A stretch of 64,000 nt of DNA, taken from Cordylochernes scorpioides (taxonomy: Eukaryota; Arthropoda; Arachnida; Pseudoscorpiones; Chernetidae). Every line of letters starts with the position of its first letter. Positions within the stretch are counted from its first letter, which is position 1. Below the pieces are notes generated by a model. That model made no database searches. It had not been told where the DNA came from and worked only from the letters and a program-made list of their open reading frames with translations. The translations under genes and the position numbers were made by a program. Below are positions 1 through 63,690 of this stretch, one piece after another. The stretch covers positions 19,540,446 to 19,604,445 of the forward strand of contig CP092882.1 in the NCBI GenBank assembly GCA_030710605.1, read 5' to 3'.

Positions 1-165
1 TTTTCTTTAAAGAGACAGAGGCAATTTTGTTCACACTTGGTTATCTCGTGTGTCTTCAATAAAGGTCACCGTGTATCAAATATCTTTCAGAATTATTGTC
101 TGAATCCCGATATACATGCTATAAGGTACAACTTTCATATGTTTTATCCATGTGTGTATATTATA
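1..165. mobile_element. Tc1-type family T, terminal fragment
   Basis: The stretch ends in a TIR-like string close to TTTTATCCATGTGTGTA and matches, with a few changes, the segments at 14580-14737, 1623-1720 and 31399-31618. The shared landmarks are 'gagacagaggcaattttg', 'ggttatctcgtgtgtctt' and 'ctgaatcccgatatacatg'. The other members show TA-flanked ends reading TACACTCATGGACAAAACTT, typical of Tc1/mariner-superfamily non-autonomous elements. No transposase is encoded here, and the copy is cut by the window edge. Confidence 0.6.
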
Positions 166-580: not shown

Positions 581-1206
581 ACAACGCTTTTAAATATTTT
601 CATTTTGTGATCATTTAATAGTTTTAAATTTCAAAGTGTGTTTATTTAATATATTAATTATATAATATACATAATAATATATGATAAAATTTAATAATTA
701 TATTGTAATTTACGATTTAAATAAATATATATGGTAGATTTCAATTACATAACGTAAAATATACAGCAATTATTCTGTGATCAAGTTTTAAACGCTGGAG
801 TTAATTGCATAACTATTCCAGCACAAGATTCCTGTGCAAGTATGCAAATATGTAAAAACAAAAAAAGAGCGAGAGAGACTCTAATATTCCTTCTCGCCAT
901 GTAAAATTTAAATGCCTTTCCCCTCCACCCTATTCTCCGGATCTTGCTCCTTCTAAATGGACCATCGATTTTTGCCTTTTACTCCAGAGTTGGAGGACAC
1001 ACACTCAGTCCATTCTAACTTCCCTCTATCACATCACCTGCTATAACTTGATGGTTACAACTTCCTGTCATTGATAACATCTCACAGGTCATTGTTGTTC
1101 TCATTTGGTTATTAAACTTATCAATACTTTATATAACATATTTATGGAATAAACCATTTTGTAAGTTGGATTTATAATTGGCTTTAAATAATAAATATAT
1201 ATATAC
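581..1206. other. Unassigned AT-rich spacer
   Basis: No coding signal is visible. A somewhat more GC-rich patch at about 890-1080 shows no recognisable motif; the rest is A/T-rich simple sequence. Confidence 0.5.
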
Positions 1207-1355
1207 ATTGATGGAAAAAACTTAAGGAAGTTGTACCTTTTAGCATGTATATATATAAGGATTCAGACAATAACTCAAAGATATTTCGTGAAGATAGAGG
1301 CTGCCTGGCCGGCATTCATATTTCTTGAAAAAAGACACCTCGGCCAGTATAAATC

Positions 1356-1414
1356 TTTTTATTACCTCGACGTTTCGACAAAAAGCTTTTGTCCTCGTCA
1401 GGAGCAAATAAAAA
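1356..1414 (-). ncRNA. Hammerhead ribozyme, mirror copy in the opposite arm
   Basis: This is the exact reverse-complement counterpart of the motif at 1529-1587, in the left arm of the palindrome. A transcript from either strand would therefore carry one ribozyme sense and one antisense and could fold as a long hairpin instead of as the ribozymes. Confidence 0.7.
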
Positions 1415-1528
1415 TTAAAACATGTAGCAAGGCGATAAAAATTGGTCTAAGGCTCTAAGGGCGTTCTCACGCGTGAGAACGCCCTTAGAGCCTTAGACCA
1501 ATTTTTATCGCCTTGCTACATGTTTTAA

Positions 1529-1587
1529 TTTTTATTTGCTCCTGACGAGGACAAAAGCTTTTTGTCGAAACGTCGAGGTAATAAAAA
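1529..1587 (+). ncRNA. Hammerhead ribozyme, minimal type I (PLE family A)
   Basis: Core CTGACGA is at 1542-1548 and GAAA at 1567-1570, followed by CGTC with predicted cleavage after C1574. Stem II is GACAAAA/TTTTGTC (1550-1556 with 1560-1566) closed by a GCT loop, with one extra G next to the core. Stem I pairs GAG and AATAAAAA (1575-1587) with TTTTTATT and CTC (1529-1541) across a 2-nt internal loop. Stem III is only ACGU, the very short helix III I understand to be typical of PLE hammerheads, which are thought to act best as dimers. Activity is not demonstrated. Confidence 0.75.
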
Positions 1588-1771
1588 GATTTATACTGGC
1601 CGAGGTGTCTTTTTTCAAGAAATCAAAGATATTTGATACACAATGACCTTTATTGAAGACGCACAAGATAACCAAATGTGAACAAAATTGCCTTTGTCTC
1701 CTTAAAAAAAAAAAAGATTTAAGGCGACATCATAGACCCCCCACATCCTTAGGTTTTTTCCGTGTGTGTAT

Positions 1772-2710
1772 ATACACTGCTGGTCACCCAACTTGCAACA
1801 CCAAGAAACACAAGAGATTTCACAACAAAATTTATTTTGTAGATAACATTTTGACCAAGTATCAAATGATATAATTTATAGACTTCTGCTAAGTGTGGTT
1901 CCTGCCAGAATCAGTAGCCAGAATAGCAGCTATTGTTGGAGATCACCGCTGCCACACGCCTCGGCATTGATTCAAAGAGACTTTGGATATGTTCTTGGGG
2001 TACAGCAGACCAAGCAGCTTCCACACGTTGCCAAAGTTGATCTGGTGTGGCAGCTGGGGATGTAATCTGGGTCAATCGTTGGGCAACCATGACTACATGG
2101 TTTCTATCGGCGAAAGATCCGGAGAGCGAGCAGGCCAGGGAAGCAATTCAATCTGGCGATTGACGAAGAACCTTTGGACAATTCGTGCAATGTGTGGTCG
2201 CGCATTATCCTGTTGAAATATGGCTGTGGGCAAGTCCTGAAAGTAAGGAAGGACAACTGGCTCCCACACCTCGGAGATGTAGCGTTGGCTGTTTAAAGTA
2301 CCGCCAATGCGTACTAGAGGAGTGCGAGAGTGATATACAAGTATAATACCGCCCCATACTATAATACCCGGTGCAGGATCAAAGTGGCGGTGCATAACAC
2401 AGTTGTTCAGCATCCTCTCTCCACGGTGTCTCCAGACTCGAATCCGACCATCGTATTGTTGCAGACTCGCAGTAAAGACAATTTCATTCCATTCTGCCTT
2501 CCACATCCTTCTTTCATTACACCATTGGCGGCGGAGACGTCTATGGTTCTGCGTCAAGGGTAGACGAAGCAATGGACGTCTTGCGGACAGACCACTCTGC
2601 TGTAAACGGCGTCGAGTGGTACGCGCAGACACTGGATGATGCGTTACAGACTGAATATGCTGTGCTACGGTTCGTGATATGATGGATGGCGCAAAGTGGA
2701 TGATGATGAT
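1772..2710 (-). mobile_element. Tc1-like DNA transposon remnant
   Basis: The element carries a broken transposase on the - strand (separate entry). Its left boundary is marked by a TIR-like TACACTGCTGGTCACCCAAC next to a TA at about 1772. No matching right TIR was found near 2700, so the 5' end of the transposase side is truncated. Confidence 0.7.
1911..2700 (-). pseudogene. Tc1-family transposase, inactivated
   Basis: Reading the - strand from about 2700, the N-terminal DNA-binding part is partial and enters at 'QHIQSVTHHPVSARTTRRRL'. The catalytic domain follows, with the second acidic residue kept in QQDNARPH and the third in SPDLSPIE (DD34E type). The block after 'EWNEIVF' is shortened, so the FSDES-like segment that supplies the first catalytic Asp is missing. 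A stop follows 'SPIE', and the C-terminal part continues in another frame to about 1911 ('PDQLWQRVEAAWSAVP', 'SMPRRVAAVI'). It lacks its start, its first catalytic residue and a continuous frame, so it cannot be active. Family assignment is from these motifs; I rate it highly certain. Confidence 0.9.
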
Positions 2711-5432: not shown

Positions 5433-5571
5433 TATATCCTATTTATTTTTCTGCAGGTAAACTCCGTATAATTGATACAATTGTACAACGAATCACAAGT
5501 TTTACGAAGGAGCTTCTTTAGTAGCTCCTTCGTAAAACTTGTGATTCGTTGTACAATTATATCCTATTTAT
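5433..5571. mobile_element. Small palindromic insertion with direct flanking repeats
   Basis: TATATCCTATTTAT occurs at 5433-5446 and 5558-5571. Between them lies a perfect inverted repeat with 36-bp arms (5479-5514 and 5523-5558) and an 8-nt loop. The direct repeats suggest a target duplication around a palindromic insert, but the right repeat touches the arm, so the boundary is uncertain. Confidence 0.5.
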
Positions 5572-5831: not shown

Positions 5832-7039
5832 ATGGAACCTAGGAATTTGCGCCTTATTTTGCTTCACGAATTTCGGCCGCCCAGGCAACCAAAAATATTA
5901 TTGAGGCCTGGGGAGAAGCTTCTTCTTCCGAAAGAACCACAAGAAGATTAGTCATTAAATCAGAAGGTTAAAGTTGGCGATTTCGGACTTGAAAATCAAG
6001 ATGGTCGTGGTCGTCGGTCAACCTTCAAAAATGAAGATTTAAAGTCTTATATTTAATCTAATTATATCCAAACAGTGTGTGAGGTAAGTGAGGAGCTTAA
6101 TGCTTCAAAATCAACCATTGCTAGACATCTTCACCAAATTCGCAAAACAAAAAAATTGCGACAATGGGTCCCGCGCGATTTGAGTGATGTTCAACGTCAC
6201 CGACGTCTGGAAATTGCAGTTATTTGTTGGCTCGCTAGAAATGGACTCCTTTTTTTAAAACAAATTGTTATGTGTGATGGAAGGTGGGTTCTTTTCGACA
6301 ACAGGAAAATATCAAGGCAGTGTTCAGACAAAGATGAGGACCCAAAACCCTTCCCAAAACCAAGCTTTCATCCAAAGCGGATAATGCTCATTTTTTGGTG
6401 GTCATATCGTCCCTACAACTGCAAACTATCGAATGTGAAAAATTCAATTTTGAAGGAGAGAGAAATGAAGAGACCATGTGGCCTACCCTCAGTAGAGGAA
6501 GGCATTGAAGGAGGGAGAAATGAAGAGACCATGACATGGTCTCTTCATTTCTCTCTCCTTCAAAATTGAATTTTTCACATTCGATAGTTTGCAGTTGTAG
6601 GGACGATATGTTGGATTATTGCATTACAGATTTTTGAATAGTGACGAAACGATAAATTCAGAAGTGTATTGTCAAGATTTGCAAGCCATGCATCTGAAAT
6701 TGTCAGAAAAAATGCCCAGTTTGGTCAATAGGAAAGGCGTTATTCTGCTTCACGATAGCGCATGGCTACACTCTACATTTACGACCCAACAAAAAATTGC
6801 TCGATAGATTATGAAGTTTTAGCTCACCCTCCTTATTCATCTGATCTGTCCCGTTCCGATTCCCATTTTTTTTCAAGCATCTGGTAAATATCTTTTCATG
6901 GAAAATGACTGATCAACCGGAGAGATGTGGAAAACGCCTTTTTGAAATCTTTGGCCTCTAGACAACCAGACTTTTATTAAAATAGCATAAAATGTTACCA
7001 TCAAGTTGGCATAAGTGCTGTGATACTAGTGGTGTCTAA
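5832..7039 (+). pseudogene. mariner transposase, inactivated
   Basis: The sequence tracks a mariner (SETMAR-like group) transposase end to end: a start with an 'RLILLHEF' helix, 'GDFGLENQDGRG', the second DNA-binding helix 'SEELNASKSTIARHLHQI', 'WVPRDLSDVQRHRRLEIA', then the catalytic blocks. First Asp is in CDGRW, second in LLHDSAWLHS, third in SSDLSRSDSHFF (DD34D type). It is broken by several frameshifts and stops, among them one after GDFG-encoding DNA near 6056 and one at 6807, and by a MITE inserted at 6407-6606. The longest open pieces are 6075-6569 and 6619-6807. No activity is possible. Confidence 0.9.
6407..6606. mobile_element. MITE inserted in the mariner pseudogene
   Basis: Perfect terminal inverted repeats of 73 bp (6407-6479 and 6534-6606), starting TCGTCCCTACAACTGC, are flanked by TA at 6405-6406 and TA at 6607-6608, the Tc1/mariner target signature. 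The 54-bp middle repeats 'gaaggagggagaaatgaag' a third time in direct orientation. It encodes nothing. Identical TIRs suggest insertion was recent relative to the decay of the host mariner, or later arm homogenisation. Confidence 0.85.
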
Positions 7040-7345: not shown

Positions 7346-8071
7346 AATTATTCCAGATTATTGACCAAATAATCTTTATTAATTAATAAAAGGGATTCAT
7401 CAACCTGATCCCAGTACAATTTCACTTTGTACTCTTTTTTTTTTCTCTCTCTTTTTTAAATTTTTTTGCTTTATTTTTTTTTTCGTGTATATATGCTGAC
7501 GTCTTTATTATTTCTACAAAATTATTTGTATATTAATATTTTATTTTAAATACATATATATATAATGAGAGAGCGCAAGTATATATAGTAAAAAAGCACC
7601 AGAGTGATTTAATGAATTCACAAATCTAAAACTCTTATGTTAAAAACGAGCGCGCCTTTTTTCGCATGGATATCAGTTCTAAAATTAGAATAAAGGTAAG
7701 GTGTGTGTGTATAAGGTGTATTTAATACTTATAGAATGTTTTAAGATTCTAATTTATAATTAAAATTTATTCGTAATGCTTTAATTCCCTTCAATATCTT
7801 ATTAGAATTCCAGTTATTCTCGCTTTCACATCTTTAAAATGGTGTCAATAAGGCCATTTCTCTCCAATAAAACACATTTACACCCGTTGCCTGACACACG
7901 CCCACATGACGTGTGTTTGAACTACACGGGATGTATGCAGAATCTAAATGAAGAAAATTCCTGATCGCCATCAATATCTTGGAAGTTAATTAAAATCCAG
8001 GCCGTGTTGATGGAGCCCACCATATTAAAAATGCAATACGGCGACGGAGTATTAGAGGGGGGTCCTTGGGA
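7346..8071. other. Unassigned spacer before the minisatellite
   Basis: T-rich runs at about 7435-7480 and a GA/TA-rich stretch; no gene or recognised element. Confidence 0.4.
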
Positions 8072-10355
8072 CTTCTTCGGACTGGGCCAGTTCATCTTGG
8101 ATCCTTCATCCAGTATCTTCATTTCTCCCTTCTTCCACACTGGGCCAGGTCATCTTGGATCCTTCATCCAGTATCTTCATTCCTCCCTTCTTCCACACTG
8201 GGCCAGGTCATCTTGGATCCTTCATCCAGTATCTTCATTCCTCCCTTCTTCCACACTGGGCCAGGTAATCTTGGATCCTTCATCCAGTATCTTCATTCCT
8301 TCCTTCTTCCACACTGGGCCAGGTCATATTGGATCCTTCATCCAGTATCTTCATTCCTCCCTTCTTCCACACTGGACCAGGTCATCTTGGATCATTCATC
8401 CAGTATCTTCATTCCTCCCTTCTTCCACACTGGGCCAGGTCATCTTGGATCCTTCATCCAGTATCTTCATTCCTCTCTTCTTCCACACTGGGCCAGGTCA
8501 TCTTGGATCTTTCATCCAGTATCTTCATTCCTCCCTTCTTCCACACTGGGCCAGGTAATCTTGGATCCTTCATCCAGTATCTTCATTCCTCCCTTCTTCC
8601 ACACTGGGCCAGGTCATATTGGATCCTTCATCCAGTATCTTCATTCCTCCCTTCTTCCACACTGGACCAGGTCATCTTGGATCATTCATCCAGTATCTTC
8701 ATTCCTCCCTTCTTCCACACTGGGCCAGGTCATCTTGGATCATTCATCCAGTATCTTCATTCCTCCCTTCTTCCACACTGGACCAGGTCATCTTGGATCA
8801 TTCATCCAGTATCTTCACTCCTCCCTTCTACCACACTGATCCAGGTCATATTGGATCCTTCATCCAGTATCTTCATTCCTTCCTTCTTCCACACTGGGCC
8901 AGGTCATCTTGGATCCTTCATCCAGTATCTTCATTCCTCCCTTCTTCCACACTGGACCAGGTCATCTTGGATCATTCATCCAGTATCTTCATTCCTCCCT
9001 TCTTCCACACTGGGCCAGGTCATATTGGATCCTTCATCCAGTATCTTCATTCCTCCCTTCTTCCACACTGGACCAGGTCATCTTGGATCATTCATCCAGT
9101 ATCTTCATTCCTCCCTTCTTCCACACTGGGCCAGGTAATCTTGGATCCTTCATCCAGTATCTTCACTCCTCCCTTCTACCACACTGATCCAGGTCATATT
9201 GGATCCTTCATCCAGTATCTTCATTCCTTCCTTCTTCCACACTGGGCCAGGTCATCTTGGATCCTTCATCCAGTATCTTCATTCCTCCCTTCTTCCACAC
9301 TGGGCCAGGTCATCTTGTATCCTTCAACCAGTACCTTAATTTCTCCCTTCTTCCACACTGGGCCAGGTCATCTTGGATCCTTCATCCAGTATCTTCATTT
9401 CTCCCTTCTTCCACACTGGGCCAGGTCATCTTGGATCCTTCATCCAGTATCTTCATTCCTCCCTTCTTCCACACTGGGCCAGGTCATCTTGTATCCTTCA
9501 ACCAGTACCTTAATTTCTCCCTTCTTCCACACTGGGCCAGGTCATCTTGGATCCTTCATCCAGTATCTTCATTCCTCCCTTCTTCCACACTGGACCAGGT
9601 CATCTTGGATCCTTCATCCAGTATCTTCATTCCTCCCTTCTTCCACACTGGGCCAGGTCATCTTGGATCATTCATCCAGTATCTTCACTCCTCCCTTCTA
9701 CCACACTGGGCCAGGTCATCTTGGATCCTTCATCCAGTATCTTCATTCCTCCCTTCTTCCACACTGGGCCAGGTCATCTTGGATCCTTCATCCAGTATCT
9801 TCATTCCTCCCTTCTTCCACACTGGGCCAGGTCATCTTGGATCATTCATCCAGTATCTTCATTCCTCCCTTCTTCCACACTGGGCCAGGTCATATTGGAT
9901 CCTTCATCCAGTATCTTCATTCCTCCCTTCTTCCACACTGGGCCAGGTCATCTTGGATCATTCATCCAGTATCTTCATTCCTCCCTTCTTCCACACTGGG
10001 CCAGGTCATATTGGATCCTTCATCCAGTATCTTCATTCCTCCCTTCTTCCACACTGGGCCAGGTCATCTTGGATCATTCATCCAGTATCTTCATTCCTTC
10101 CTTCTTCCACACTGGGCCAGGTCATCTTGGATCCTTCATCCAGTATCTCCATTCCTCCCTTCTTCCACACTGGGCCAGGTAATCTTGGATCCTTCATCCA
10201 GTATCTCCATTCCTCCCTTCTTCCACACTGGGCCAGGTCATCTTGGATCATTCATCCAGTATCTTCACTCCTCCCTTCTACCACACTGGGCCAGGTCATC
10301 TTGGATCCTTCATCCAGTATCTCCATTCCTCCCTTCTTCCACACTGGGCCAGGTC
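8072..10355. repeat. 58-bp minisatellite, 39 monomers
   Basis: The monomer runs GGATCCTTCATCCAGTATCT, then TCATTCCTCCCTTCTTCCAC, then ACTGGGCCAGGTCATCTT. The first complete GGAT start is at 8099 and the last at 10303, exactly 38 x 58 bp apart, so I see no net indel across the array. Point variants travel together: a unit with GGACC is followed by one with GGATCATT, and rare variants recur at multiples of 58 bp (for example 9314 and 9488, 174 bp apart). The + strand monomer has no stop in any frame, so all three frames stay open for hundreds of codons; because 58 is not a multiple of 3, each gives the same 58-residue period. I see no evidence of coding use. Confidence 0.95.
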
Positions 10356-10575
10356 CTCACGGATAGTTTCATATAGTTCTCTGTCTTCATTCATTTTTCT
10401 TTGACATTAGGCCAGATCTTCAGGTGTCTTCCACTAGTTCTTTGTTTTTATTTCTTCCTTTTTCAGAACTGGACCTCCTAGATCCTTACTCCAAATCCTT
10501 GTCCACATTTCTTTATTCTTCGGCATTTGGCAGTTCCTCCTGAATGCTTCATGTCCCTGGTTGGCTACAGTTATT
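10356..10575. repeat. Diverged edge of the minisatellite
   Basis: Fragments such as 'aactggacctcctagatcc' and 'ttaggccagatcttcagg' resemble decayed monomers with irregular spacing, as expected at the ageing edge of a tandem array. Confidence 0.5.
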
Positions 10576-13497: not shown

Positions 13498-13930
13498 AAT
13501 GAACGTCACCATGATCACCATGGTGGATAGTAGTTGACGACTGCTTTTACTGTAAGTGCACCACATGCCTACATATGTAGAGAGCAGTCCAAAGTTACAC
13601 TTACAAGTGTTGAGTAAAAATACCAGGCCTCCAGTGAAAAGTATATTTTCAAAAACCTTTTTAATCTCTAGCTTTCGGGAACGAACGCCCTTCTACAAGA
13701 TTCTAACATGTTTTCTCTTGTAGAAGGGTGTCCGTGCCCAGAAGCTAGAGATTAAAAAGGTTTTTGAAAAGATACTTTTCCCTGGAGGTCTGACATTTTT
13801 ACTTAAGATTGATACAAGGGAATATTTTATTGACTTACAAATGTACCAAAACTTCGTTTGGTTACTGGTTCTCACTGGTGGGGTTTGACTTTTGCAAGAA
13901 GCGTAACCATTGAAGCAATCTATTTCTTCG
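13498..13930 (-). mobile_element. tRNA-derived SINE interrupted by a PLE
   Basis: SINE body sequence runs from 13506 (CATGATCACCATGGTGG) to 'acttacaagtgt' at 13599-13610 and resumes at 'acttacaaatgt' 13833 with 'cgtttggttactggttctc'. The PLE family C insertion lies between. The tRNA head is not recognisable on the far side. Confidence 0.65.
13599..13844. mobile_element. PLE family C insertion, palindromic, with 12-bp target duplication
   Basis: ACTTACAAGTGT (13599-13610) and ACTTACAAATGT (13833-13844) flank the insert and are contiguous SINE sequence. Arms run from about 13612 to 13695 and about 13718 to 13805, each with 'cctccag..gaaaag' then 'agctttcgggaacgaacgcc' or its counterpart. The tail (13806-13832, 'attgatacaagggaat') matches the reverse complement of the tail at 46807-46832 next to the GIY-YIG copy, which identifies the family. 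The arms are diverged from each other, so this copy is older than the 46.8-kb one. Confidence 0.75.
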
Positions 13931-14579: not shown

Positions 14580-14737
14580 TTTTTTTTTTAAGGAGACAGA
14601 GGCAATTTTGTTCACACTTGGTTATATCGTATATCTTCAAAAAGGTCACTGTGTATCAAATATCTTTCAGAGTTATTCTCTGAATCCCGATATACATGAC
14701 AAAAGGTATAACTTCCTTAATTTTGTCCATGAGTGTA
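14580..14737. mobile_element. Tc1-type family T, terminal half
   Basis: Shares all landmarks with 1-165 and ends in TTTTGTCCATGAGTGTA, the family T terminal repeat. The opposite end is absent. Confidence 0.65.
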
Positions 14738-16119
14738 TGTTGGGAATACAATGAGAGTAAATACACAAATATCAATTTACATAGATAACAAAATTCACAA
14801 TAAAACTTGAAAGCATTTAAAAATTGACAGAATCATTATCTTTTTGTCAATTTTTGACGAGATCAAAATTAAAGTGGAATCAAAAATAGAGCATATTTTC
14901 GAATAAGTGGGAAATTGACTTGAAAAAAAATCCCCCTGTTCTTAAATCGATCAAATTCTCAAAGAATCTTTAAAACATTTTAACAAATGGTAATTAGATA
15001 TATTTTCATTTATTTCTAATTTCTTTTTTATATTTTCCTATATTGTATGTGTTGCAGCTCTCTATAAAATAGAAGATGTATCTTTAAATAATTGTATTTA
15101 TTAACATTGAAAGAGAAACAGTGGGTTTACTCTCTATGAAAGTCTCTGCTACACACAGAGAGAGAGAGTGTGTGTGATAGCTATAAATAAAACACTCCAT
15201 AAAATATTATTTTAGAATAAAAATAAGTTAAAAGAACATTGATATAATATGTAAAAAAATATTAAGAAATGTATTACATCCCCTCTGTAAAAATATGGAA
15301 ACGTAGATTTTCATGTTATTAATTTTCAAAACCGATTAAAAAATATCTCTAAAATTTTTCTTATTTAAGATAAAAAATCGATTCCGATGAGCACCTACCC
15401 AGCCTCTAGATGCTGCCAAATATATTTAAAAATAAATAGCTGATTTTTTTTCCGCCTCGGATCTTATTTCGCCTCACCTTCAAATATTCCCTCTCGGGTT
15501 ACACGTCGGCGATGAATTCGTCCCAATTTAAGAAAGATTTTTTTTTTTTTGGCTCTCGGGGAAAAAGTTGTAAAATATTCTGGAAAAATCGGGATGGATC
15601 TCCATCGGATGGGAGTTTTTCTATAATATCATCAGAGAGAGAGCGCACATCCTCTACTTAATAAGGTGGACGAACGCTCTAGCCAAACATTTACTCGAGC
15701 AAACTTACCCTTCCTCCCACATATTTTACCCCTTTATTACTTCCCGGCTAACACGACCTCTTGGCAGCATTTAGATCTTCTTAATTCATTTAGGGTACAA
15801 ACTCTTCACATTTGCATATCTCCCCCTCTGTCTGTGCAAATTCGACGGTATAACGAATCATTTGAAACTGTTACTGAGCCCGAAATGTAATCTTTAATTA
15901 AACAATAATGAGCTTACTCTGCGTGTTGAAGATGGAATTATTCAATCCGCTATTTCTTTATGATCTATAAGACTATTTCTATGCAATTAGTGAATTGAAA
16001 ATGAAAAAAAGATTATATATTATAAACATTTGGCGTTATAGATCTATTAAACTCTGTAGCAAGGAATACAGCGAGAAATTTGGATGGCTAGCTAATCTCT
16101 TTCTATACCGAGAGACGTA
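14738..16119. other. Spacer with a single-copy-looking patch
   Basis: Mostly AT-rich. The stretch at about 15380-15720 is more balanced ('ctctcgggttacacgtcggc', 'tggatctccatcggatggg') and matches no repeat in this window. An AG/TG microsatellite lies at about 15155-15177. No gene model could be built. Confidence 0.35.
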
Positions 16120-16860: not shown

Positions 16861-16984
16861 TTCTTAAAGAGGGTTTGTAGAAGCTTCTTTGAGACCTACA
16901 TTTAGTGGTTGTATGACCAAATGGTTGCACAATAGGTTATTTATGTTCAGAAATAATAGATTCTATATATATATAATTTTATTA

Positions 16985-17160
16985 AAAATTAAAAAAGACA
17001 TATCCTGACCAGGAACACATGTGCTTTTTAGATGGCAAAGCGCCATCTAGTGGAACAGAAATAACTAGATGGCGCTATGCCATCTAAAAAGCACATGTGT
17101 TCCTGGTCAGGATATGTCTTTTTTATTTTTAATATCAACACCTGACCTTTTTATTTTTTT
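16985..17160. mobile_element. Family E palindromic insertion with tail
   Basis: Arms 16985-17051 and 17064-17130 are nearly perfect inverted repeats with 'agacatatcctgaccagg', 'cacatgtgctttttagatgg' and GCGCCATCTAGT. A tail 'aatatcaacacctgacc' follows at 17131-17147, and its reverse complement precedes the family E copy at 33829. This is the arm-plus-one-sided-tail plan of families A-C. Target duplication is not resolvable in the AT flanks. Confidence 0.65.
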
Positions 17161-19674: not shown

Positions 19675-19860
19675 TTTAACGTTATCTTGGAAGACAGTGG
19701 TTGCCTGGCTGGCATTTCGAGTTCTTAAAATAAAATACACTTCGGCCAGAAGAATTTTTATTTTTTCGGCGTTTCGACAAAAAGCTTTTGTTCTCGTCAA
19801 GAAAATGAGGACAAAAGAATTTTGTCGAAACGTAAAAAAAAAAACTCGAAAAAAAAAAAA
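19675..19860. mobile_element. PLE family A, decayed palindromic copy
   Basis: The tail ('ggttgcctggctggcatttc', 19690-19720) is followed by a left arm with 'acacttcggccag' and CGTTTCGACAAAAAGCTTTT, and a right arm with GGACAAAAGAATTTTGTCG then AAACGT. The left arm's ribozyme core reads TTGACGA instead of CTGACGA, and the right arm lost CTGA. Both hammerheads should be dead. Confidence 0.6.
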
Positions 19861-19919
19861 CCGTTATATTATCTTCGGGATATATAAAAATCGTGTAACT
19901 TTCTTGCCATGAAATACGA

Positions 19920-21045: not shown

Positions 21046-21047
21046 CT

Positions 21048-21242
21048 TCATCTTGAAGAAGGAATCAAAGTTTAGGGTGAGATGTTTCTTTTATTTGTGC
21101 TGTATGATCACAAAGCTTTCGGACTTTGACAGCAGGCAACTATATATTGCCTGTCGAAGGACGTCAAAGTCCGAAATCTTGCCAATTATACAGCACAAAT
21201 AAAAAAAAAAAAACTCGTCGACGTAAACTTTGATTCCTTATT
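21048..21242. mobile_element. PLE-type palindrome with CGAAA hairpins
   Basis: Head-to-head arms start 'aaggaatcaaagttta' (21058) and end 'taaactttgattcctta' (21224-21240). Inside, both arms carry 'tttatttgtgctgtat' and a GGACTTTGAC/GTCAAAGTCC hairpin followed by CGAAA on the outward strand ('gcctgtcgaagg..gtccgaaatcttg'). This matches the PLE terminal hairpin plan but belongs to a family distinct from A-C. Confidence 0.6.
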
Positions 21243-21540
21243 CAATAAGAATAAAAAAGATTGTCTATCAATATCTGCTACGTATAGATGGAAATTTTGG
21301 CCGTAGATTTGGCCTAGCCAATCTACCAGCTAACCACCTCTTTGGCAGATTGTGAATATTTCATTTGATCCCTTACCGCACGGCTATATAAATATAACAA
21401 ACATGTACAATGAAATGTAATGTATGTATGTAAGGTAAATAAATAATCATTGTATATTTATGAACTATGTACTTTGCTTTAGGTGAGCGATGTCTAATAA
21501 AGTAAAAAACTGGAATCCTATTCAATAAATAGCAATATAA

Positions 21541-26285: not shown

Positions 26286-26700
26286 TTGAAGAGTTGCTCA
26301 GCATGTGTATATTCTGAAATTAATCCAAAGTTAAATGTTTATATTAAAAGTAATATTTTGGGGATTCGAAAAGTCTCCCCTATCACAATATTTCGATCAG
26401 TACCTGCCAATCTTTATTTTATTAACCATATAAAAAGCGCATATATTTTATTACCTATTGAAGAATGCAAAGATATTGATAAAATAACGAGTCACAACAT
26501 CATTTTTGGTAAATTCAGACAAAAACCAACTTTATACCATTATTTCGGGCATATGGCTATATTCAGTACATGAGCGGCTTTGATTTCATAGCTCCTTACT
26601 TGAGGAATTATGAAATATGTCGAATTTACAGAAAAGTTGCTCAAGCTGGTAAAGTGGGAGGACCGAGTTTCAGGTCAGAATACAAAACAAGATATTTTTG
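26286..26700 (-). mobile_element. Family D copy, decayed hammerhead
   Basis: Aligns with 35195-35410 through 'ggtaaattcagacaaaaacc', 'accattatttcgggcatatg' and 'caagctggtaaagtggg'. On the - strand the ribozyme core has become CTGAATA..CCCGAAAT, so it should be inactive. Confidence 0.5.
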
Positions 26701-26809
26701 CAAGATAGTATTCATGTATCAAAAAGGGAACCTTTCCTTTTAAAAATCATTAAAACATTGAATTTAACGTACCCTTCTGTACAAAGCGTAAAGTTTGTGA
26801 TTAAAAAAA

Positions 26810-26990
26810 TTGTGTCTCAACATCAGTTTGAGTAAATTCGACCAAGAGTCAATCTAAATACCATGGTTTCGGGTCATGACCCTCATCAGTATAGGCAACG
26901 ATTTAAAAGCTCTTGTATAACATAATTTGGAGCAGGCTTGTTATCCAAGATGGCGGAATTCTAACGCAGCCGACCGATCCATCCATCAGT
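26810..26990 (-). mobile_element. Family D copy carrying a hammerhead
   Basis: Shares 'gtaaattcgaccaagag' and the ribozyme context with the copies at 26286-26700 and 35195-35410. Element boundaries are not fixed. Confidence 0.5.
26855..26896 (-). ncRNA. Hammerhead ribozyme motif, family D
   Basis: Reading the - strand from 26896: CTATA, CTGATGA (26889-26883), stem II GGGTCATGACCC (26882-26871), GAAA (26870-26867), then CCATGGT and A. Stem III is ACC/GGU with a 2-nt turn (or a self-dimer), with predicted cleavage after the A at 26859 (GUA site). Stem I pairs UUUAG with CUAUA with one U-U mismatch. Core and all three helices are present. Activity is untested. Confidence 0.6.
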
Positions 26991-30255: not shown

Positions 30256-30432
30256 AAAGTTTCTATGTGAAAAATAGACACTTCGGCCAGTTGGAGTTTT
30301 TTATTTTCTCAACGTTTCGACAAAAATATTTTGTCTTCATCAGGAGAAGTAAATAAAATAAAACATTTGGCAAGGCAATTGTTTAATATAAATATGAATG
30401 CCGGCCTCTATCTTTACGATAAAGTTTCTATG
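30256..30432 (-). mobile_element. PLE family A insertion, single arm, with 12-bp target duplication
   Basis: AAAGTTTCTATG at 30256-30267 and 30421-30432 flanks a 153-bp insert. It contains one family A arm ('gacacttcggccagttgg', hammerhead, 'ggcaaggcaattg') and the family tail inverted ('gaatgccggcctctatc', 30393-30415). It is the non-palindromic form of the insertion at 1275-1634 and fixes the minimal mobile unit as arm plus tail. Confidence 0.75.
30299..30360 (-). ncRNA. Hammerhead ribozyme (PLE family A, second locus)
   Basis: The - strand: CTGATGA at 30343-30337, A, stem II GACAAAA-TAT-TTTTGTC, GAAA at 30318-30315, then CGTT with predicted cleavage after the last T. Stem I opens with GAGAA/TTCTC, then an internal loop and further A/T pairs. 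Compared with 1529-1587 the seventh core base (free to vary) is T, not C, and the site is GUU. Confidence 0.7.
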
Positions 30433-42110: not shown

Positions 42111-43110
42111 TTACTTTATACTCACAAGGCATTCTATCACAGTTTATTTTTATTTAATAATTGGACTTGCAATTAATCTAAGGAGGAAACAATTTACTAT
42201 ATCCATTTATCATATTTCCATACACAGGTTGTTTAAAAGAGATAGAATTCTTATTCAATAATACCATCATATTTCTCTCCACGTGTAAACTACAGTCAGC
42301 TTTAAACATCCAAAGTACCAAATACCTGTTTGGTCATCATGGGTGAGATACATAACCCCATAGGATAACTCTAATTATCACAATAGGGTATATCGTAAGT
42401 TTAATATGTTTTTTGCCTTCTCTCTTTCTAATGTACCTAATATCAACCCATCCCTAGTTTTTGGAGGGTTAAAATGACAAAAAATAATAATTTAAAGAGA
42501 TGTGTGTGTGTGTCGCCAAAAATAATTATTAAATTTAAGTCGCGCTAGGATGTATTAATTACATATAGAACGGATTAAAAGATCATCTTAAAAAATTATG
42601 AAGCTACATTAATTTTTTTTACAAGTTTACAAATTAAAAATTAATACATATGCATATATGTTTATTTATATAGAGAGAGTGGAGTGTTCCTAGCAAATAA
42701 AAATGAACTGTTTTAAATGAGGACTTAGCGTGCGCTCTCTAGGAATTTTATCTGTGAAATAGGATGCAGCTGTTTCTCACCGTAACGGTGTTGTTTACAT
42801 TATAACAAACATTAAGGTTAGATATTATTTACGCTACTTAAAAACCAACTCTCTATTCTTTTCTCTTTCTCTCTTTTTCTTTCTCTTAGAACCTTATCTT
42901 TATAATAAGCCCAAATGAATAAAGCATATATACAAGTTTTAAAGTTTAAAAAAGGTAAAATACTGAGCTATGATTATCTTTAAAACTAATCAGAGAAATC
43001 CGTAGAAGTTTTGAAAGACCTAAGCGTCACTTGAGGAATGAGTAGATTTCAGCGATTGCAGTCCAGACAACATAGGATGAACATAAAGAAAATTATAAAC
43101 AAAAGACAAT
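42111..43110. other. Unassigned spacer
   Basis: A (TG)n run lies at about 42502-42513 and a (CT)n-rich stretch at 42860-42890. No gene or element. Confidence 0.35.
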
Positions 43111-43114
43111 TCAC

Positions 43115-43455
43115 CGAAGAAAGAATTTATTTTACACCACGACAAAGCAAGCTTTCGGCTGAAACAGCCCATCTACAGGCATATATCTACGTTACTGAAA
43201 CTTGTAAATTCAACAAATCCATATATTTACATACAGAGAAGTAGGAAATATGAGAGATGGATATATGCAAATATTAATTAACATTTTGATGTATTGTGCT
43301 AATTAATATTTGCATAACCTACTATCATACTTCCTACTTCTTTGTATGTCTATATATTATATTTGTTTAATTTCTAAGTTTTAGTATCGTAATTGTACTT
43401 GTCCAAGGGCTGATACGCCCGAAATCTTGTTTTTTTTTCGTGGTTAAAAAAGAAA
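43115..43455. mobile_element. PLE-type palindrome, diverged arms
   Basis: The left arm has 'caagctttcggctgaaacag' with 'cccatctacagg', the right arm 'ccaagggctgatacgcccga' then 'aatcttg'. The inner arms pair better ('gaagtaggaaatatgagag' with 'tcatacttcctacttc'; 'gcaaatattaatta' with 'taattaatatttgc'). Both outer ends have the stem-CGAAA hairpin of PLE terminal repeats. No target duplication was found. Confidence 0.55.
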
Positions 43456-43739
43456 CTCTTCCCTAAAAAATTGCCTTTATCTATAATTTTACTGAAGGGA
43501 TTATGATATTAAAAAGTTTTCAGATTATAAAAGAAAATGATGAAGTTTAACTATCAGAGTATGAAGCGAGACACAGACTATATGATAATCCATCTTCAGA
43601 GGAGAAGAGTGGTTACGGTCTTAACCAACGTTCTTTGCCTAATTTAATACGTACACCTCTCCTAGTACTATGTCCCTTTTATGATGATAATAAGAAACTG
43701 GGAAACTCTCTTGGTAAGTCATCAACGTACAGCCTGTAC

Positions 43740-43780
43740 CACACTGACGAGGGCCTACAGCTCGAAACACATACATGCTT
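43740..43780 (+). ncRNA. Hammerhead-like core, incomplete
   Basis: CTGACGA at 43744-43750, stem II GGGC-CTACA-GCTC, GAAA at 43764-43767, then CACATACATG. Core and stem II are good, but no clear stem I or III partner was found, so it is probably a decayed PLE ribozyme. Confidence 0.4.
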
Positions 43781-46312: not shown

Positions 46313-47059
46313 AGCAATATATATATACCTCTCCCGTTAGATAACACCTAAAACTATGTAACATCTATTGACCTGCTCTGTAATCTAGCATCTATAGGCT
46401 CTATACAAATATTGGATTCAGTTTCTTTTAAATTAGTGTGCCGTGTTTATCATATACATTGATTCCGTCGTAAATGCGAACTTGTCATTGAACGGAATAT
46501 CGCCAGCTACAAGCAAGATTTCGAATAATGTTCTCCGCACATATAAATATACGACGAAGGGGAACAATGAAAATATGTAAAAAAGAAATATTGACGTGTG
46601 CACGCGCGGACGTTAGTGGACTGTTTGAAGGCTAATTGTTATAATAATCAGAAAATTAGATTTATAAATTGGTATTATAAAGGTATTTCTGTCCTTTTCT
46701 ATGGAATCGGTTATTGTTGGTAAATTAATCTTTGTGTTGATGCCACTGAAGTGTTTGTAAACCATTGTTATAATAAATATTAATATCCTATTGTAATCTT
46801 ATACTTCGATAAAAATAATCCCTTGAATCAATATTAAAATAAAAACATAAATCCTCCAGGGAAAAGATTCTTTTAAAAATATTTTTATTAAAAAATATCT
46901 CGAGCTTTCGGGAAAGTAAGCCCTTCTACGGGAGAAACTATTTTACATCCTTAATACGCCACAATAAAATAATATTTAAACTTAAATACAGTCCTTTAGT
47001 TGTTTACATTTGTTTTGAGGCATAATCAACGCGGGCTTCTATTGCGCGTGATTCACTTG

Positions 47060-47423
47060 GAGGTTATGGGGTGGGCTCAGGAAATATAATGTTATAAACT
47101 TCCGGGATATCTATTCTTCTGTTAATACTATTGTGCTTTCTGGATATGATGGATTCTATTATTAGTCTCTGTAGTCTATTGGGGATGTTGGAGTAATGGG
47201 TCTTTGGTTCTGATAGGGAGAAGGAATGGCCTGTTTCTCTTATATGTTGGTATACTAAAGATCTACTGTCTTGGTTGTCGATATTTCGTTTATGTTCTGA
47301 TATTCTTATATTTAAATGTCTGCCAGTTTCGCCAACATATTTGGTTTTGCATTCGTTGCATTCTATGGAATATATGGCATTCTTAATATTGGAAGGATAA
47401 TCAACGGTATTGTTCTTTGTTAT
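47060..47423 (-). pseudogene. Inverted second copy of the GIY-YIG endonuclease
   Basis: The left arm encodes the same domain on the - strand from about 47423 (inside 'ITKNN') to its stop near 47064. It lacks the N-terminal linker. The + strand reading of this arm and the - strand reading of the right arm give identical 60-residue chance frames (47204-47386 and 47530-47712), which shows how exact the inverted repeat is. Confidence 0.8.
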
Positions 47424-47852
47424 CTGAAGAAATTTGGGATCAAAACATTTTTCAGCAACTCACCTAATTTAAATTCGTTACTAAGAAACCCCATAACAAA
47501 GAACAATACCGTTGATTATCCTTCCAATATTAAGAATGCCATATATTCCATAGAATGCAACGAATGCAAAACCAAATATGTTGGCGAAACTGGCAGACAT
47601 TTAAATATAAGAATATCAGAACATAAACGAAATATCGACAACCAAGACAGTAGATCTTTAGTATACCAACATATAAGAGAAACAGGCCATTCCTTCTCCC
47701 TATCAGAACCAAAGACCCATTACTCCAACATCCCCAATAGACTACAGAGACTAATAATAGAATCCATCATATCCAGAAAGCACAATAGTATTAACAGAAG
47801 AATAGATATCCCGGAAGTTTATAACATTATATTTCCTGAGCCCACCCCATAA
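47424..47852 (+). CDS. GIY-YIG endonuclease domain of a Penelope-like retroelement (5'-truncated)
   Basis: The domain would nick target DNA for reverse transcription of the element. The frame begins with the linker typical upstream of PLE endonucleases ('FFSNSPNLNSLLRNP'). The GIY-like strand IYSIECNEC follows with a C-x2-C pair, then YVGET (the YIG equivalent), the R of 'GRHLNIRISEH', 'SLVYQHIRETGH' giving the His partners of the PLE zinc-binding set, and the Glu in 'LIIESIISRK'. It ends 'YNIIFPEPTP' and stop. All catalytic signature positions appear intact. The frame is open back to 47316, but upstream of 47424 it reads through the inverted arm and is not native protein. The reverse transcriptase half is missing, so this is a dead copy. 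Confidence 0.85.
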   Translation: MKKFGIKTFFSNSPNLNSLLRNPITKNNTVDYPSNIKNAIYSIECNECKTKYVGETGRHLNIRISEHKRNIDNQDSRSLVYQHIRETGHSFSLSEPKTHYSNIPNRLQRLIIESIISRKHNSINRRIDIPEVYNIIFPEPTP

Positions 47853-48139
47853 CCTCCAAGTGAATCACGCGCAATAGAAGCCCGCGTTGATTATGCCTCA
47901 AAACAAATGTAAACAACTAAAGGACTGTATTTAAGTTTAAATATTATTTTATTGTGGCGTATTAAGGATGTAAAATAGTTTCTCCCGTAGAAGGGCTTAC
48001 TTTCCCGAAAGCTCGAGATATTTTTTAATAAAAATATTTTTAAAAGAATCTTTTCCCTGGAGGATTTATGTTTTTATTTTAATCTTATACTTGTTTAAAT
48101 GCAATGTACAAAATTACATTCCAAATTTAATAGTAGTAA

Positions 48140-49889: not shown

Positions 49890-50207
49890 GTAAGTTCTGC
49901 ACGAGGAAGACATAAGGTTTGAGGGTCCTTAAAGTCTAATACATTCTTAAAGTGTGTTTGTATCTATTTGCATAATTTAATGCATATCCGATATGTTAGT
50001 TTTTATATTTACATACTGTGTCCGTTTGTTCACCTGGTAATAGAGAAAGAGGCCTATTGATGAGTCTCGAATCTAGATTTCTATATAAGATATTGCTTGC
50101 AAAGTAAATGTTGACTTGTTTTTTAATAGATAGCCCTTACAACTCTCATCGGTATATTAAGTAGTATCATAGAAAATACATTTTAACATTTTTATAAGCT
50201 TAATATT

Positions 50208-50403
50208 ACACAGGTCTACAAAACTCAAAGTAGTTGTACCTTATAGCATATATATATCGGGATTCAGAAAAAAAACTCTGAGAGATATTTGATGCACAGG
50301 GATATTTATCACTGTGCATCAAATATCTCTCAGAGTTTTTTTTCTGAATCCCGATATATATATGCTATAAGGTACAACTACTTTGAGTTTTGTAGACCTG
50401 TGT
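50208..50403. mobile_element. Family T palindrome
   Basis: Perfect inverted arms of 92 bp (50208-50299 and 50312-50403) with a 12-nt loop. Each arm is family T terminal sequence ('aaggtacaactactttgag', 'ctgaatcccgatatatatat', 'tgatgcacag'). It could be a hairpin-type MITE derivative or a fold-back duplication. No TA duplication at the ends. Confidence 0.75.
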
Positions 50404-52124
50404 TATTAATCTATTTATGCCCTCCTTTCAAGCTATTAGTCCGGGTCAAAGCTTTGGTAGCTTCGAACATTAAGCTTTCCGCTAAGAATACCAGATATAT
50501 AATTGTGCCTTTTAAATATTATATATTGGAATATATAATTCACTAAAGATATGTGTGCCTTTTATATTTACGATGTATGTATTTACCGTTTAATGAAAGA
50601 GTATAAAAATCTAGTCAGGTATATACCAAAAGTATTTTTAAAATTTCCCTGTATCCATCACAAAGTGTATTTCCGAAAATAGACTTATAGAGCGTACACC
50701 AAATAGCACCACAGAAATTGATTGAAGATGCAGTTTTTTGTAAAAAATATATAAAAATAAGAGGAGGTGGAAGAGAATCTCCCACTGGGAGCCAATACCA
50801 TTTTTGCATCAAGAAAATAAATATGAGAGAAGCGGGAAATTGGTAGAAAGACCAGAGTAGATGTAAGTTCCCTAGCGGCCCGGTACAGATGGGTTTACAT
50901 CGCAGACGATGCTGATTCAATTTTCGAACAGACGTTCCTTCCCCCCTCTCCATCGACGTAAAGCTTTCTTTTGGTTTTTAATTGCTGCCATTGTATTTTT
51001 TTTATTTACTTCATCAACCTCTTTCGGAGACTTATTACAATTATTGGTGTTCATCTTGGCCAGAAGAATATAAAAGGTTTCCCTTTCTTTCTAGGTTAGT
51101 ACGGCTTCTTGGTCAAATATATTTATTTATTGTTTTTTTTTCCCTTTCGGCTCTCTCTACGAATTATTATTTTATTATTATTTTTATTGCGTGAGAGAAA
51201 AATATATTTTTTAATATTTACGTTATATGAATATACTTGTTTCTTCAAATTTTGTGCACATAATAGTTATAAATATTTTTCTCTGTGTGGACAATATAGT
51301 TTAATAAATTGTTTTTCAAATTATTATTTATTTCAAAATATTTGTTGAAAATGAGCAAGCTATATACAACTCTGAAATTTTCTGAAGACCTAGTCGTCAT
51401 GATTGATGTTTTTCCAAATTTTTGGGTCTTTGGCTTATTGTGGATAAATGTGGATTATGGGATATCTAGGAAACCATGGTATATAACCATGGTAAAACTG
51501 AGTAAACTCTTCGTTGATTTAATCCTATATTTTGGCCACCCACTATCGTTTTTTTCACGGAAGAATTTTTAAACAGTTTCTAGAATAATAGATTTTATAA
51601 ATATGAAAACTACACACACACGCAGAACTTCCAACATCTTAAATTTTGAATAAAATTCAAAGATAATATTGAATCGAAACTTTTAAATTTCAAAATATAA
51701 TTTTTTTAATTTAGTAACATATCCGCATATACATTTTAATCGATTATAAATTTATGAAACATATTTGTGGCCACACAATTACAACTCAATATAGAATGTG
51801 TGTGTTAATGCATTAACTATTATATCTTTAAAATAATGGGAAAAATCTGATTCTGTTCTTTGCAGTCACGACGAATTATACCTTTAAATAACACGCACAT
51901 TAATAATAATAAAAATTAATATATTTGGTTAAAATAACAAGATTTCAAATCAAGGCGTGATGATATTTTCATTGAATATACCACCCTTCTCTTTTAGGTT
52001 CGTTTGAACGAATTTCATTCAGTTTTCAATTTTGTTACAAGAATATAGAAACTAAGAAAAGGTTTAATTTCTACTGAAAATAGAACAATATAAAAATGAA
52101 GGGGAACAGTTTCCTTATTGAAAA
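50404..52124. other. Unassigned spacer
   Basis: No gene or element is recognised. Open frames at 50615-50953 (-) and 51309-51572 (+) lack motifs. Confidence 0.35.
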
Positions 52125-58360: not shown

Positions 58361-60225
58361 AATTTTAATTATTCTCCGAGGGAGTCTTTGGTTAATTAAA
58401 TAACTTGAGAGGCAGGTGGAACATTCCTGGTCGATTGCTGGTGCAAGGATAGATGCTGCTCACTTTTCAGCCGTTATTCTGCATGGTGAACTTGCAGATC
58501 TCTGGGATTGCCATTGGTTTGACTGATCTAGTCCATTTGTGCAGAGAGACATCTTCTGTAATACATATGACAGAATTGGAACGATGCAAAGGAGATTAGC
58601 AGGCCCCTCTGAACAAGGAAGACACGCAAAATCATGGATGCGTTTCATATGTTCTATGAATTATTGAGAAAAATATAGCAAATTTGATAAGTCAAAATTT
58701 AACGACAACTTGAATAGTAGGGTGTTGGTGAATCTATGGTACATCAACACAATACAGCAGAAATTTTGTGAGATATGGATTTAACATTTCCTTGGTAGGT
58801 TGTAAGGGGTTTTCTCTATTCTCTTTGGTTTCTTCACTAGCTCTTAGTTTTCCCTACATCCTCATATGTCTCCAACATCACCACGATAAATTAGTTTTAT
58901 CTATGGAAATGGCCATATGATTGTGAGTCCCATAGCTATAGTATTATGAAGAATCATGCAAATGACTATATGTTTGCTTTTAATTCCGAGATGAAATTTC
59001 ATTGGTTGAACTGCAAAGACTGAGAAGTTTTCCAAAATTTTAGTTTCAGAAAATCAATTATGGACGTTTATGGGGATTATAGTTGTCTCTCAGCTCCTCC
59101 GGACTCCCCTAACATGCAGCAGCGTGGTGATATGGGCGGAAAAAAGAGGATTGGGCAATCAAGCGAATCAATTGTCAATAGTTGATCCCATCACAGGGGT
59201 AGTCCATGAGTAAGACATGGACTCTAGGGAGCCCCCTATGGACAGCAGGAAGGGCATTAATGGGATCAACGGAGCAGATTATCTCCCTAAGGAAAATCCA
59301 TCCCCTGCTCAACATCTATTATTGAAACTGAGATGTGCCAGTTTATCTTCATTCTTTGCTCTATCTTCTTGGCAGAGAGAGATTATTGAAGGATGGAGAA
59401 AATCTATAAGTGAATGGAGGGGCTCGAAGTCTCAACCTTGAAGATAAGAATCTATAATTTAATGGAATTTCTCGTGAAGTATATAGAGGATATTAAAAAA
59501 ACCTTTAAGAATATTGAAACTTTCTGGAAAACACTCTCCAGTCCAAACATCGAGACATGGCAACACGAAATAATACACCTATAAAATCAAGAGTAAAGAT
59601 TAAAAACTAAGTAACATGAAATCTCGCTTTTATTAAACTAAGGGTTTTGGTTGGATCTTGATTTTATCTGCTCAATCCCGCTTATACCATATCTCGATCC
59701 TTGACCTGAAGAAATGTGTTTTCTCCTGAAATTTTGCCATGGCTTTGACAAAGAAAATCATTGGGGTTTAGTATTTGAATATTTATTGTAGTTAATATCA
59801 CCTCCCAACTAATTTATTGGAAATTGGTAGGATGGAAATTCTATAGATGTGACTGCATCTAGTCCAATTATATAGAGGATATAGGAAACATTGTGAGGGA
59901 TGCATTTACAAATGACTATTAGAAACTATTAACGTGTATTTTATGCATCGAATATCATAAGAAAATAATCTTTAGAGAGAACAATTCATATGAAATATAT
60001 TTATAGAGATCGTATAGAAATTTTTGAAAGATTATTGTGTCGAGATTATTGGATGTAAGGTCTTGGAATATAGATGTGAGCATATAAATTCTTGATGGTT
60101 GAATATTTTAATGATTATCACAGAAGGTCTAAATATTTAATATATTTAAAATCGTAAACAATATTTATAATATGAATGTGCATGTGAATTTTACGAAGAG
60201 AGTATGGATAATCCGAATAGGATTA
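58361..60225. other. Low-repeat spacer
   Basis: 58460-59450 is more balanced than most of the window and contains a 74-codon + frame (59217-59441) with no known motif. No gene model could be justified. Confidence 0.3.
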
Positions 60226-63485: not shown

Positions 63486-63690
63486 TACATAGTAACATTT
63501 ATCAAATTATAAAACTATTTTAGAGGCGTAATATTCTTTTTAAAATAAAACAATTTCTACTGTCCTTACTGCGATGGAAAAATTAAAGAGAGGGCCTGGC
63601 TCATCAGTGAGCCAGGCCCTCCCTTTAATTTTTCCATCGCAGTAAGGACAGTAGAAATTGTTTTATTTTATAGTACATAGTAACATTTAT
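63486..63690. mobile_element. Family H palindrome with 17-bp target duplication
   Basis: TACATAGTAACATTTAT at 63486-63502 and 63674-63690 flanks 171 bp in which two family H units meet head to head at GGCTCATCAGTGAGCC. The arms (about 63540-63604 and 63605-63670) are near perfect. The ACTGGCGAAAC part of both units is absent from the centre. The left side keeps a longer extension ('aaaactattttagaggcg'), a one-sided tail as in families A-C. Confidence 0.75.

Follow-up and report, generated by a model that had tools for sequence, protein, structure and literature searches.

What is a perfect palindrome that carries two opposed ribozymes, and how could such an arrangement have come about? The question is raised by a locus in the genome of the pseudoscorpion Cordylochernes scorpioides, examined within a stretch of 64,000 nucleotides of contig CP092882.1 that is referred to in its entirety as the window. 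Two arms of 152 + 152 bp, 100% complementary and with 0 nt between them, form the palindrome, and a hammerhead core is present in each arm (Table 1). A preliminary description of this DNA had reported a perfect 304-bp palindrome with a 12-bp target duplication, nested within another repeat, and all three observations hold. The word TCAAAGATATTT occurs at both borders (base 1623 is counted in the palindrome and in the right copy alike), and the palindrome splits a host repeat, which we take to be of Tc1 type, that is found uninterrupted elsewhere in the window (1-165 and 14580-14738). These uninterrupted relatives possess 2 extra bases that are absent from both copies of TCAAAGATATTT, and as both copies have this private loss in common they represent one site that was duplicated upon insertion.

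Table 1. Coordinates of the palindromic insertion and of related insertions in the window.
Feature	Position	Strand	Remarks
Host repeat split by the palindrome	1200..1774	.	MITE-sized; 32-nt imperfect inverted ends; further copies
Target site duplication, left copy, TCAAAGATATTT	1275..1286	.	12-bp direct repeat
33-nt tail	1287..1319	-	Between left duplication and palindrome; no right-hand counterpart
Left pseudo-LTR arm	1320..1471	- (sense strand)	Attached to the tail
Minimal hammerhead, left arm	1369..1401	-	Same as in right arm
Join of the arms, CGCG	1470..1473	.	4-nt overlap assignable to either cDNA
Right pseudo-LTR arm	1472..1623	+ (sense strand)	Tail-less
Minimal hammerhead, right arm	1542..1574	+	Spans core, stem II and the triplet to be cleaved; cut predicted 3' of 1574
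Target site duplication, right copy, TCAAAGATATTT	1623..1634	.	12-bp direct repeat
Insertion E, head-to-head	13610..13806	.	Older; related to D; one tail
Insertion B, arm homologue, head-to-head	19689..19868	.	Older; one tail; ends approximate; duplication weak (7-9 bp)
Insertion C, arm homologue, head-to-head	30256..30432	-	Exact 12-bp duplication
Insertion F, head-to-head	43089..43490	.	Older; hammerhead-like remnant; one tail by inspection
Insertion D, second PLE family	46794..48092	.	Inverted 594-nt arms with 69 nt between

The identity of the arm can be read from its relatives in the same genome. A search of the 2.62-Gb genome (24 contigs) with the tail-less 152-nt arm as query returned at least 45 matches, of which at least 30 are full-length and 100% identical, 2 of these being the arms in the window. 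The 45 matches listed all lie in the window or in 29 other regions and constitute 31 insertions, including that of the window (family A). In L024/L044 the element is full-length, with direct pseudo-LTRs flanking a 795-aa ORF in a unit of 2765 bp, while the pseudo-LTRs are inverted in 18 of the 31 insertions. The L024 protein has Pfam matches to RVT_1 (E 9.5e-9) and, at the C-terminus, to GIY-YIG (E 6.1e-6), and no PDB relative of it was found at E 0.1. On the minus strand the tail of the window insertion continues the pseudo-LTR into the first residues of this ORF, MNAGQAASIFT, which is the ORF start in L024. Judged by gene plan and Pfam domains, the arm represents the pseudo-LTR of a Penelope-like element (PLE) with an endonuclease, a gene plan known from PMC11167929 and PMC3846280 (these and the other papers cited here were available as excerpts). 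Instead of the ribozyme unit in its own right that had been supposed, the palindrome is a Penelope pseudo-LTR inserted head-to-head, and in all probability it is a young insertion of the PLE end only, derived from an element that was recently active. For the origin of inverted-repeat Penelope insertions, self-priming has been proposed in one system (PMC3846280), and cutting and extension of two strands has been seen in vitro in another, in work that did not settle the later steps (PMC11167929).

A hammerhead is defined by the conserved core CTGANGA...GAAA, stems I and II and a UH cleavage site. The two opposed minimal hammerheads of the preliminary description, with all core residues, 7 bp in stem II and 3 + 8 bp in stem I, were recovered in each arm (CTGACGA...GAAACGTC), with an unpaired extra purine between A9 and stem II; core, stems I and II and cleavage site correspond to the type I minimal form of PLEs. 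With both strands searched, a strict descriptor of the pattern detected 3 sites in the window (both arms and 30343(-)) and none in 200 windows simulated with a first-order Markov model, and relatives of the pattern numbered 0 in viral_contigs and 0 in genome_contigs. Rfam hammerhead models expect helix III. These models gave no match at gathering score over the whole window and, for 1200-1700 and 1505-1623, none with an E value of 10 or less; the preliminary description had proposed such a covariance search and named the lack of a match as grounds against its ribozymes, and formally the outcome goes against it. The arm hammerheads are without stem III (zero-loop ACGU), and the hammerheads of PLEs have been described as lacking helix III (PMC6155905). 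The Rfam scan of the palindrome region also returned strong scores for miRNA precursors, which result from the long hairpin.

The key clue to the origin of the palindrome is its tail. The preliminary description had noted a one-sided tail plan common to the palindrome and to a GIY-YIG element in the window (insertion D), and each does have one tail; its statement that the two sequences are unrelated is half right, as a hammerhead-like module is seen by eye in the same place in both. Among the 31 family-A insertions, 18 are head-to-head doubles whose outer ends could both be read and whose arms are usually unequal (the window copy, L009, L015, L021, L022, L023, L025, L026, L028, two in L031, L033, L037, L038 with L056, L047, L050, L053 and L054). 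Exactly one tail is present in 18/18 of these doubles, a sample from which insertions with both arms short would have escaped, given the 152-nt query. For the second family the end of the GIY-YIG element served as query and yielded 42 matches; the window copy and the 9 further close inverted pairs that were read have exactly one tail in 10/10 cases, for a total of 28/28 doubles over both families. Without the two copies in the window, which had prompted the comparison, the counts are 17/17 and 9/9. The 28 doubles may be 27, because the two insertions of L031 may be one event that was duplicated, and if the start site were chosen independently at both ends, 27/27 would have a probability of <1e-8 at any tail frequency.

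Insertions read at one end occur in both states. The 13 family-A insertions without a detected inverted arm have a tail at the end read in 8 cases and none in 5, and the second-family singles (one end each, 20/22 ends read, outside the 28) have a tail in 6 and none in 14; two of these singles, L087 and L088, seem to represent a single locus that was duplicated. The ends without a tail lie at unit positions 151-156 where the insertion has two arms and at 153-158 where it is one-sided, and this agreement indicates that the tail-less end is a start site as well. A literature search, which was based on excerpts and had the first Penelope papers and a 2014 paper on PLE hammerheads outside its scope, met neither a strict rule of one tail per insertion nor a shared-RNA account. 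With many near-identical copies of two families in one genome, the one-tail pattern separates models of insertion in a way that is testable by counting.

The arms, joins and borders of the doubles provide further detail. Divergence averages 0.31% between arms of one insertion (9 pairs, those with at least 300 comparable sites) versus 0.76% between insertions (426 pairs), and non-majority variants are common to both arms in L022 (4/4), L037 (5) and L023, L033 and L050 (3 each). This likeness is uneven: L047 and L054 have zero rare variants common to both arms, the arms of L050 (1.08%) differ more than separate insertions do on average, and those of L028 (0.58%) nearly as much. Border words of 8-15 bp are present at both ends in 14/16 family-A doubles tested (L015 and L038 omitted), with no common word of at least 8 bp in L028 and L050; the second family has border words of 12-14 bp in 7/7 pairs read as separate ends, and one-sided family-A insertions have a common word in only 4/13. 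In the 15 doubles of the join test (L015, L038 and L031b omitted), 8 joins have an overlap of 1-5 nt, 2 have none and 5 contain a filler of 2-11 nt. The mean overlap of the 10 joins without filler is 2.0 vs 0.75 for random joins, and the joins look like end joining, with overlaps modestly above chance. The reach of the arms differs in 14/16 doubles compared. An invariably greater length of the tail-less arm was rejected: that arm has the longer reach in 8 doubles, the tailed arm has it in 6, and in 2 there is no difference; in L038, outside these 16, the tailed arm is longer. Both arms of L050 end at an equal unit position with the 11-nt filler between them, and both arms of the window copy stop at one position with no spacer. 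L048, L049 and L055 (solo) and one arm of L021 begin ~7-11 nt upstream of the window join point, suggesting that the cDNAs of the window insertion had nearly reached the probable 5' end of the RNA.

From the identity of the element, its architecture, the duplication, the single tail of each double and the likeness of the arms, we infer that the window insertion probably arose by priming at two ends on the element RNA, with each start site used once and the cDNAs joined. The PLE endonuclease would make a staggered double-strand cut of 12 bp within a repeat, and the two 3' ends of the break would each prime reverse transcription on the element RNA. One cDNA would start at the outer of two sites, which lies 33 nt inside the ORF, and give rise to the tail; the other would start at the inner site, the presumed start codon, and have no tail. 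Both cDNAs would extend to near the RNA 5' end and be joined via the self-complementary CGCG, after which fill-in would produce the perfect palindrome. One RNA may serve both ends, with the inner site taken by one enzyme and the outer left for the other, and if the RNA is common and each start site usable once, exactly one tail per two-ended insertion follows. Likewise, cDNAs almost complete to the RNA 5' end would result in a perfect palindrome of the pseudo-LTR alone, and if the two-ended reading is true the perfect palindrome is a limiting case. The minimal hammerheads of PLEs would become doubled by the same two-ended insertion.

Several steps of this scheme have precedents in vitro. Frangieh and colleagues found both target strands to be cut and extended by a lizard PLE protein (PMC11167929). 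In the same system reverse transcription is initiated at two neighboring sites within the RNA, the tail being the stretch between them (PMC11167929). Counting against the scheme, no difference in start site was seen between the top and bottom strands (PMC11167929), and a single use of each site per insertion is not reported in the excerpts of that paper. The genome data add that in doubles each start site is used once. Whether PLEs in general often integrate by coordinated two-ended TPRT, with one RNA, mutually exclusive start sites and end-joined cDNAs, and with one-sided insertions representing the use of a single end, is evenly balanced.

The principal alternative is self-primed fold-back, in which a cDNA or an antisense template folds onto itself and is copied to produce head-to-head arms, as has been proposed for the palindromic joins of rotifer Penelope elements (PMC3846280). 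Some of the evidence counts against two-ended priming: the likeness of arms, which are mostly near-identical within an insertion, fits fold-back or gene conversion as well and is uneven, border words are lacking in L028 and L050 and present in only 4/13 one-sided insertions, the overlaps at joins exceed chance modestly and fillers are present in 5/15. The palindromic joins are likewise expected of fold-back, which suits L050 best, with its equal reach and 11-nt filler. However, fold-back should copy the tail too, yet the tail is one-sided in all 28 doubles, and copying would have to halt each time at the end site of the one-sided insertions. The unequal reach in 14/16 would demand loops as long as ~1.2 kb (L022), and the window copy would fit only if CGCG itself formed the hairpin loop. 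Fold-back is for these insertions an unlikely origin. Perfect palindromes with zero spacer are also a known type of artefact, and the window palindrome matches it, but an inverted read in sequencing or assembly would not account for a duplication with a private deletion at the borders, a one-sided tail or other loci of the same plan, and this explanation can be given hardly any weight. Equally little weight attaches to a fold-back DNA transposon. MITEs are likewise short, palindromic and non-coding, and the window is rich in palindromic MITE-like repeats, but the duplication is of 12 bp and not the short transposase type, the tail is one-sided, the ends match PLE start sites and the arms are identical to a PLE pseudo-LTR, all of which contradict a MITE identity.

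A further alternative is that the palindrome is kept as a functional ribozyme or retrozyme-like element whose hammerheads cut or circularise RNA. The intact core residues in the window palindrome and in insertion C speak for this, as does the absence of descriptor sites from random windows. Against it, the unit is the end of the 2765-bp coding PLE unit and has no stem III, which also led to rejection of an animal retrozyme identity. The computed energies favor the long hairpin into which, according to the preliminary description, a transcript could snap, at a predicted -269 kcal/mol for the full palindrome transcript. RNA of a single arm is predicted to prefer by 4 kcal/mol a non-hammerhead fold that pairs the cleavage site, in an energy model that ignores the tertiary core, and for dimer RNA the energies are -23.9 kcal/mol for a double-hammerhead, -32.6 kcal/mol for two separate monomers and -40.3 kcal/mol for the best dimer fold. 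The predicted cut is at unit position 103, where 0/18 partner arms end and which 17/18 cross, with the qualification that the 152-nt arm query would miss insertions from cut RNA and that such insertions are compatible with the partner-arm data. The second family reaches its 42 genome matches at 97-100% despite a core that reads CCGTAGA, not CTGANGA, in the four copies inspected over their whole length (window, L063, L073 and L074). A functional ribozyme is thus very improbable as the reason for the palindrome. The spread of the second family despite CCGTAGA, the arms that do not end at the cut and the unfavorable folds argue that the hammerheads are passengers, which is most likely what the opposed ribozymes are at the window locus; they are opposed because of the head-to-head mode of pseudo-LTR insertion. 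Palindromes with opposed ribozymes in such genomes can arise as insertion by-products.

The element is of a known PLE kind, and its interest lies in the strict one-tail pattern. As far as the excerpts go, PAc of Anolis (PMC11167929) and the Penelope of Adineta vaga (PMC3846280) resemble it in having an ORF with RT and C-terminal GIY-YIG, direct and inverted pseudo-LTRs, palindromic inverted joins, a minimal hammerhead near the pseudo-LTR/ORF junction and a tail of 30-40 nt on one inverted pseudo-LTR, compared to 33 nt in the window. A zero-spacer palindrome of pseudo-LTRs alone distinguishes the window insertion from both. The target duplication is 8-10 bp in the rotifer element (PMC3846280) and 12 bp here, and the predicted cut precedes the presumed start codon by ~50 nt here, whereas in PAc it is 26 bp inside the ORF. 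The tail on one inverted pseudo-LTR was already described in the rotifer paper (PMC3846280), where it is optional, whereas exactly one is found here in every double. Cleavage by the hammerhead of the lizard PLE depended on the presence of protein, and mutating the hammerhead was without effect on insertion (PMC11167929). In animal retrozymes, which are repeats with type I hammerheads (PMC7229834), a hammerhead also lies in a short repeated unit, but theirs is a non-coding unit of 150-450 bp with helix III, while the unit here is without stem III, is not in tandem at the window locus and belongs to a coding PLE.

The window holds other insertions of related plan. One arm of insertion C is hardly more than tail, and the other contains the hammerhead and is tail-less; insertion D has a GIY-YIG fragment in each arm and one tail, and its duplication measures 13 bp. 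By inspection a single tail is present in each of B, C, E and F, which stand outside the 28 counted doubles. A diverged palindrome at 21047-21251 (G), with a CCGAAAGCTT motif, is possibly of a further PLE family, and as its ends are unclear it was left out of all tail counts. The hammerhead-like module of the second family, with CCGTAGA (for example at window 47930-48079), is a ribozyme in degenerate or altered form, although the family spread recently. Elsewhere in the genome, L073 (G000:C3:115787080-115787700) is a second-family, near-perfect palindrome of pseudo-LTR only within a satellite-like array, and an apparent PLE of another family, with a 731-aa open frame and inverted 160-nt ends, lies inside a family-A copy at about 880-3496 of L015.

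Several other features of the window can be noted. Two related stretches 324 bp apart (about 26490-26890 (-); 75% over 60 nt) include, in the first, a type I hammerhead-like motif with a stem III by eye (CTGATGAGGGTCATGACCCGAAACCATGGTA), with a relative at ~35265 (-); these stretches and the relative at ~35.2 kb may be an animal retrozyme. An isolated CTGACGA...CGAAA hammerhead-like core is located at 43744-43767 (+). Palindromic MITE-like repeats are many (5474-5563, 16980-17134, 50197-50412, 63541-63670 and others), and an inverted duplication at 6403-6610 ends a Transposase_1 remnant. A large minisatellite of HTGPGHLGSFIQYLHSSLLPH repeats at 7965-10376 has long open frames in several phases, and a U6 snRNA-like sequence is present at 58548-58654 (+), with a score of 54.4 bits.
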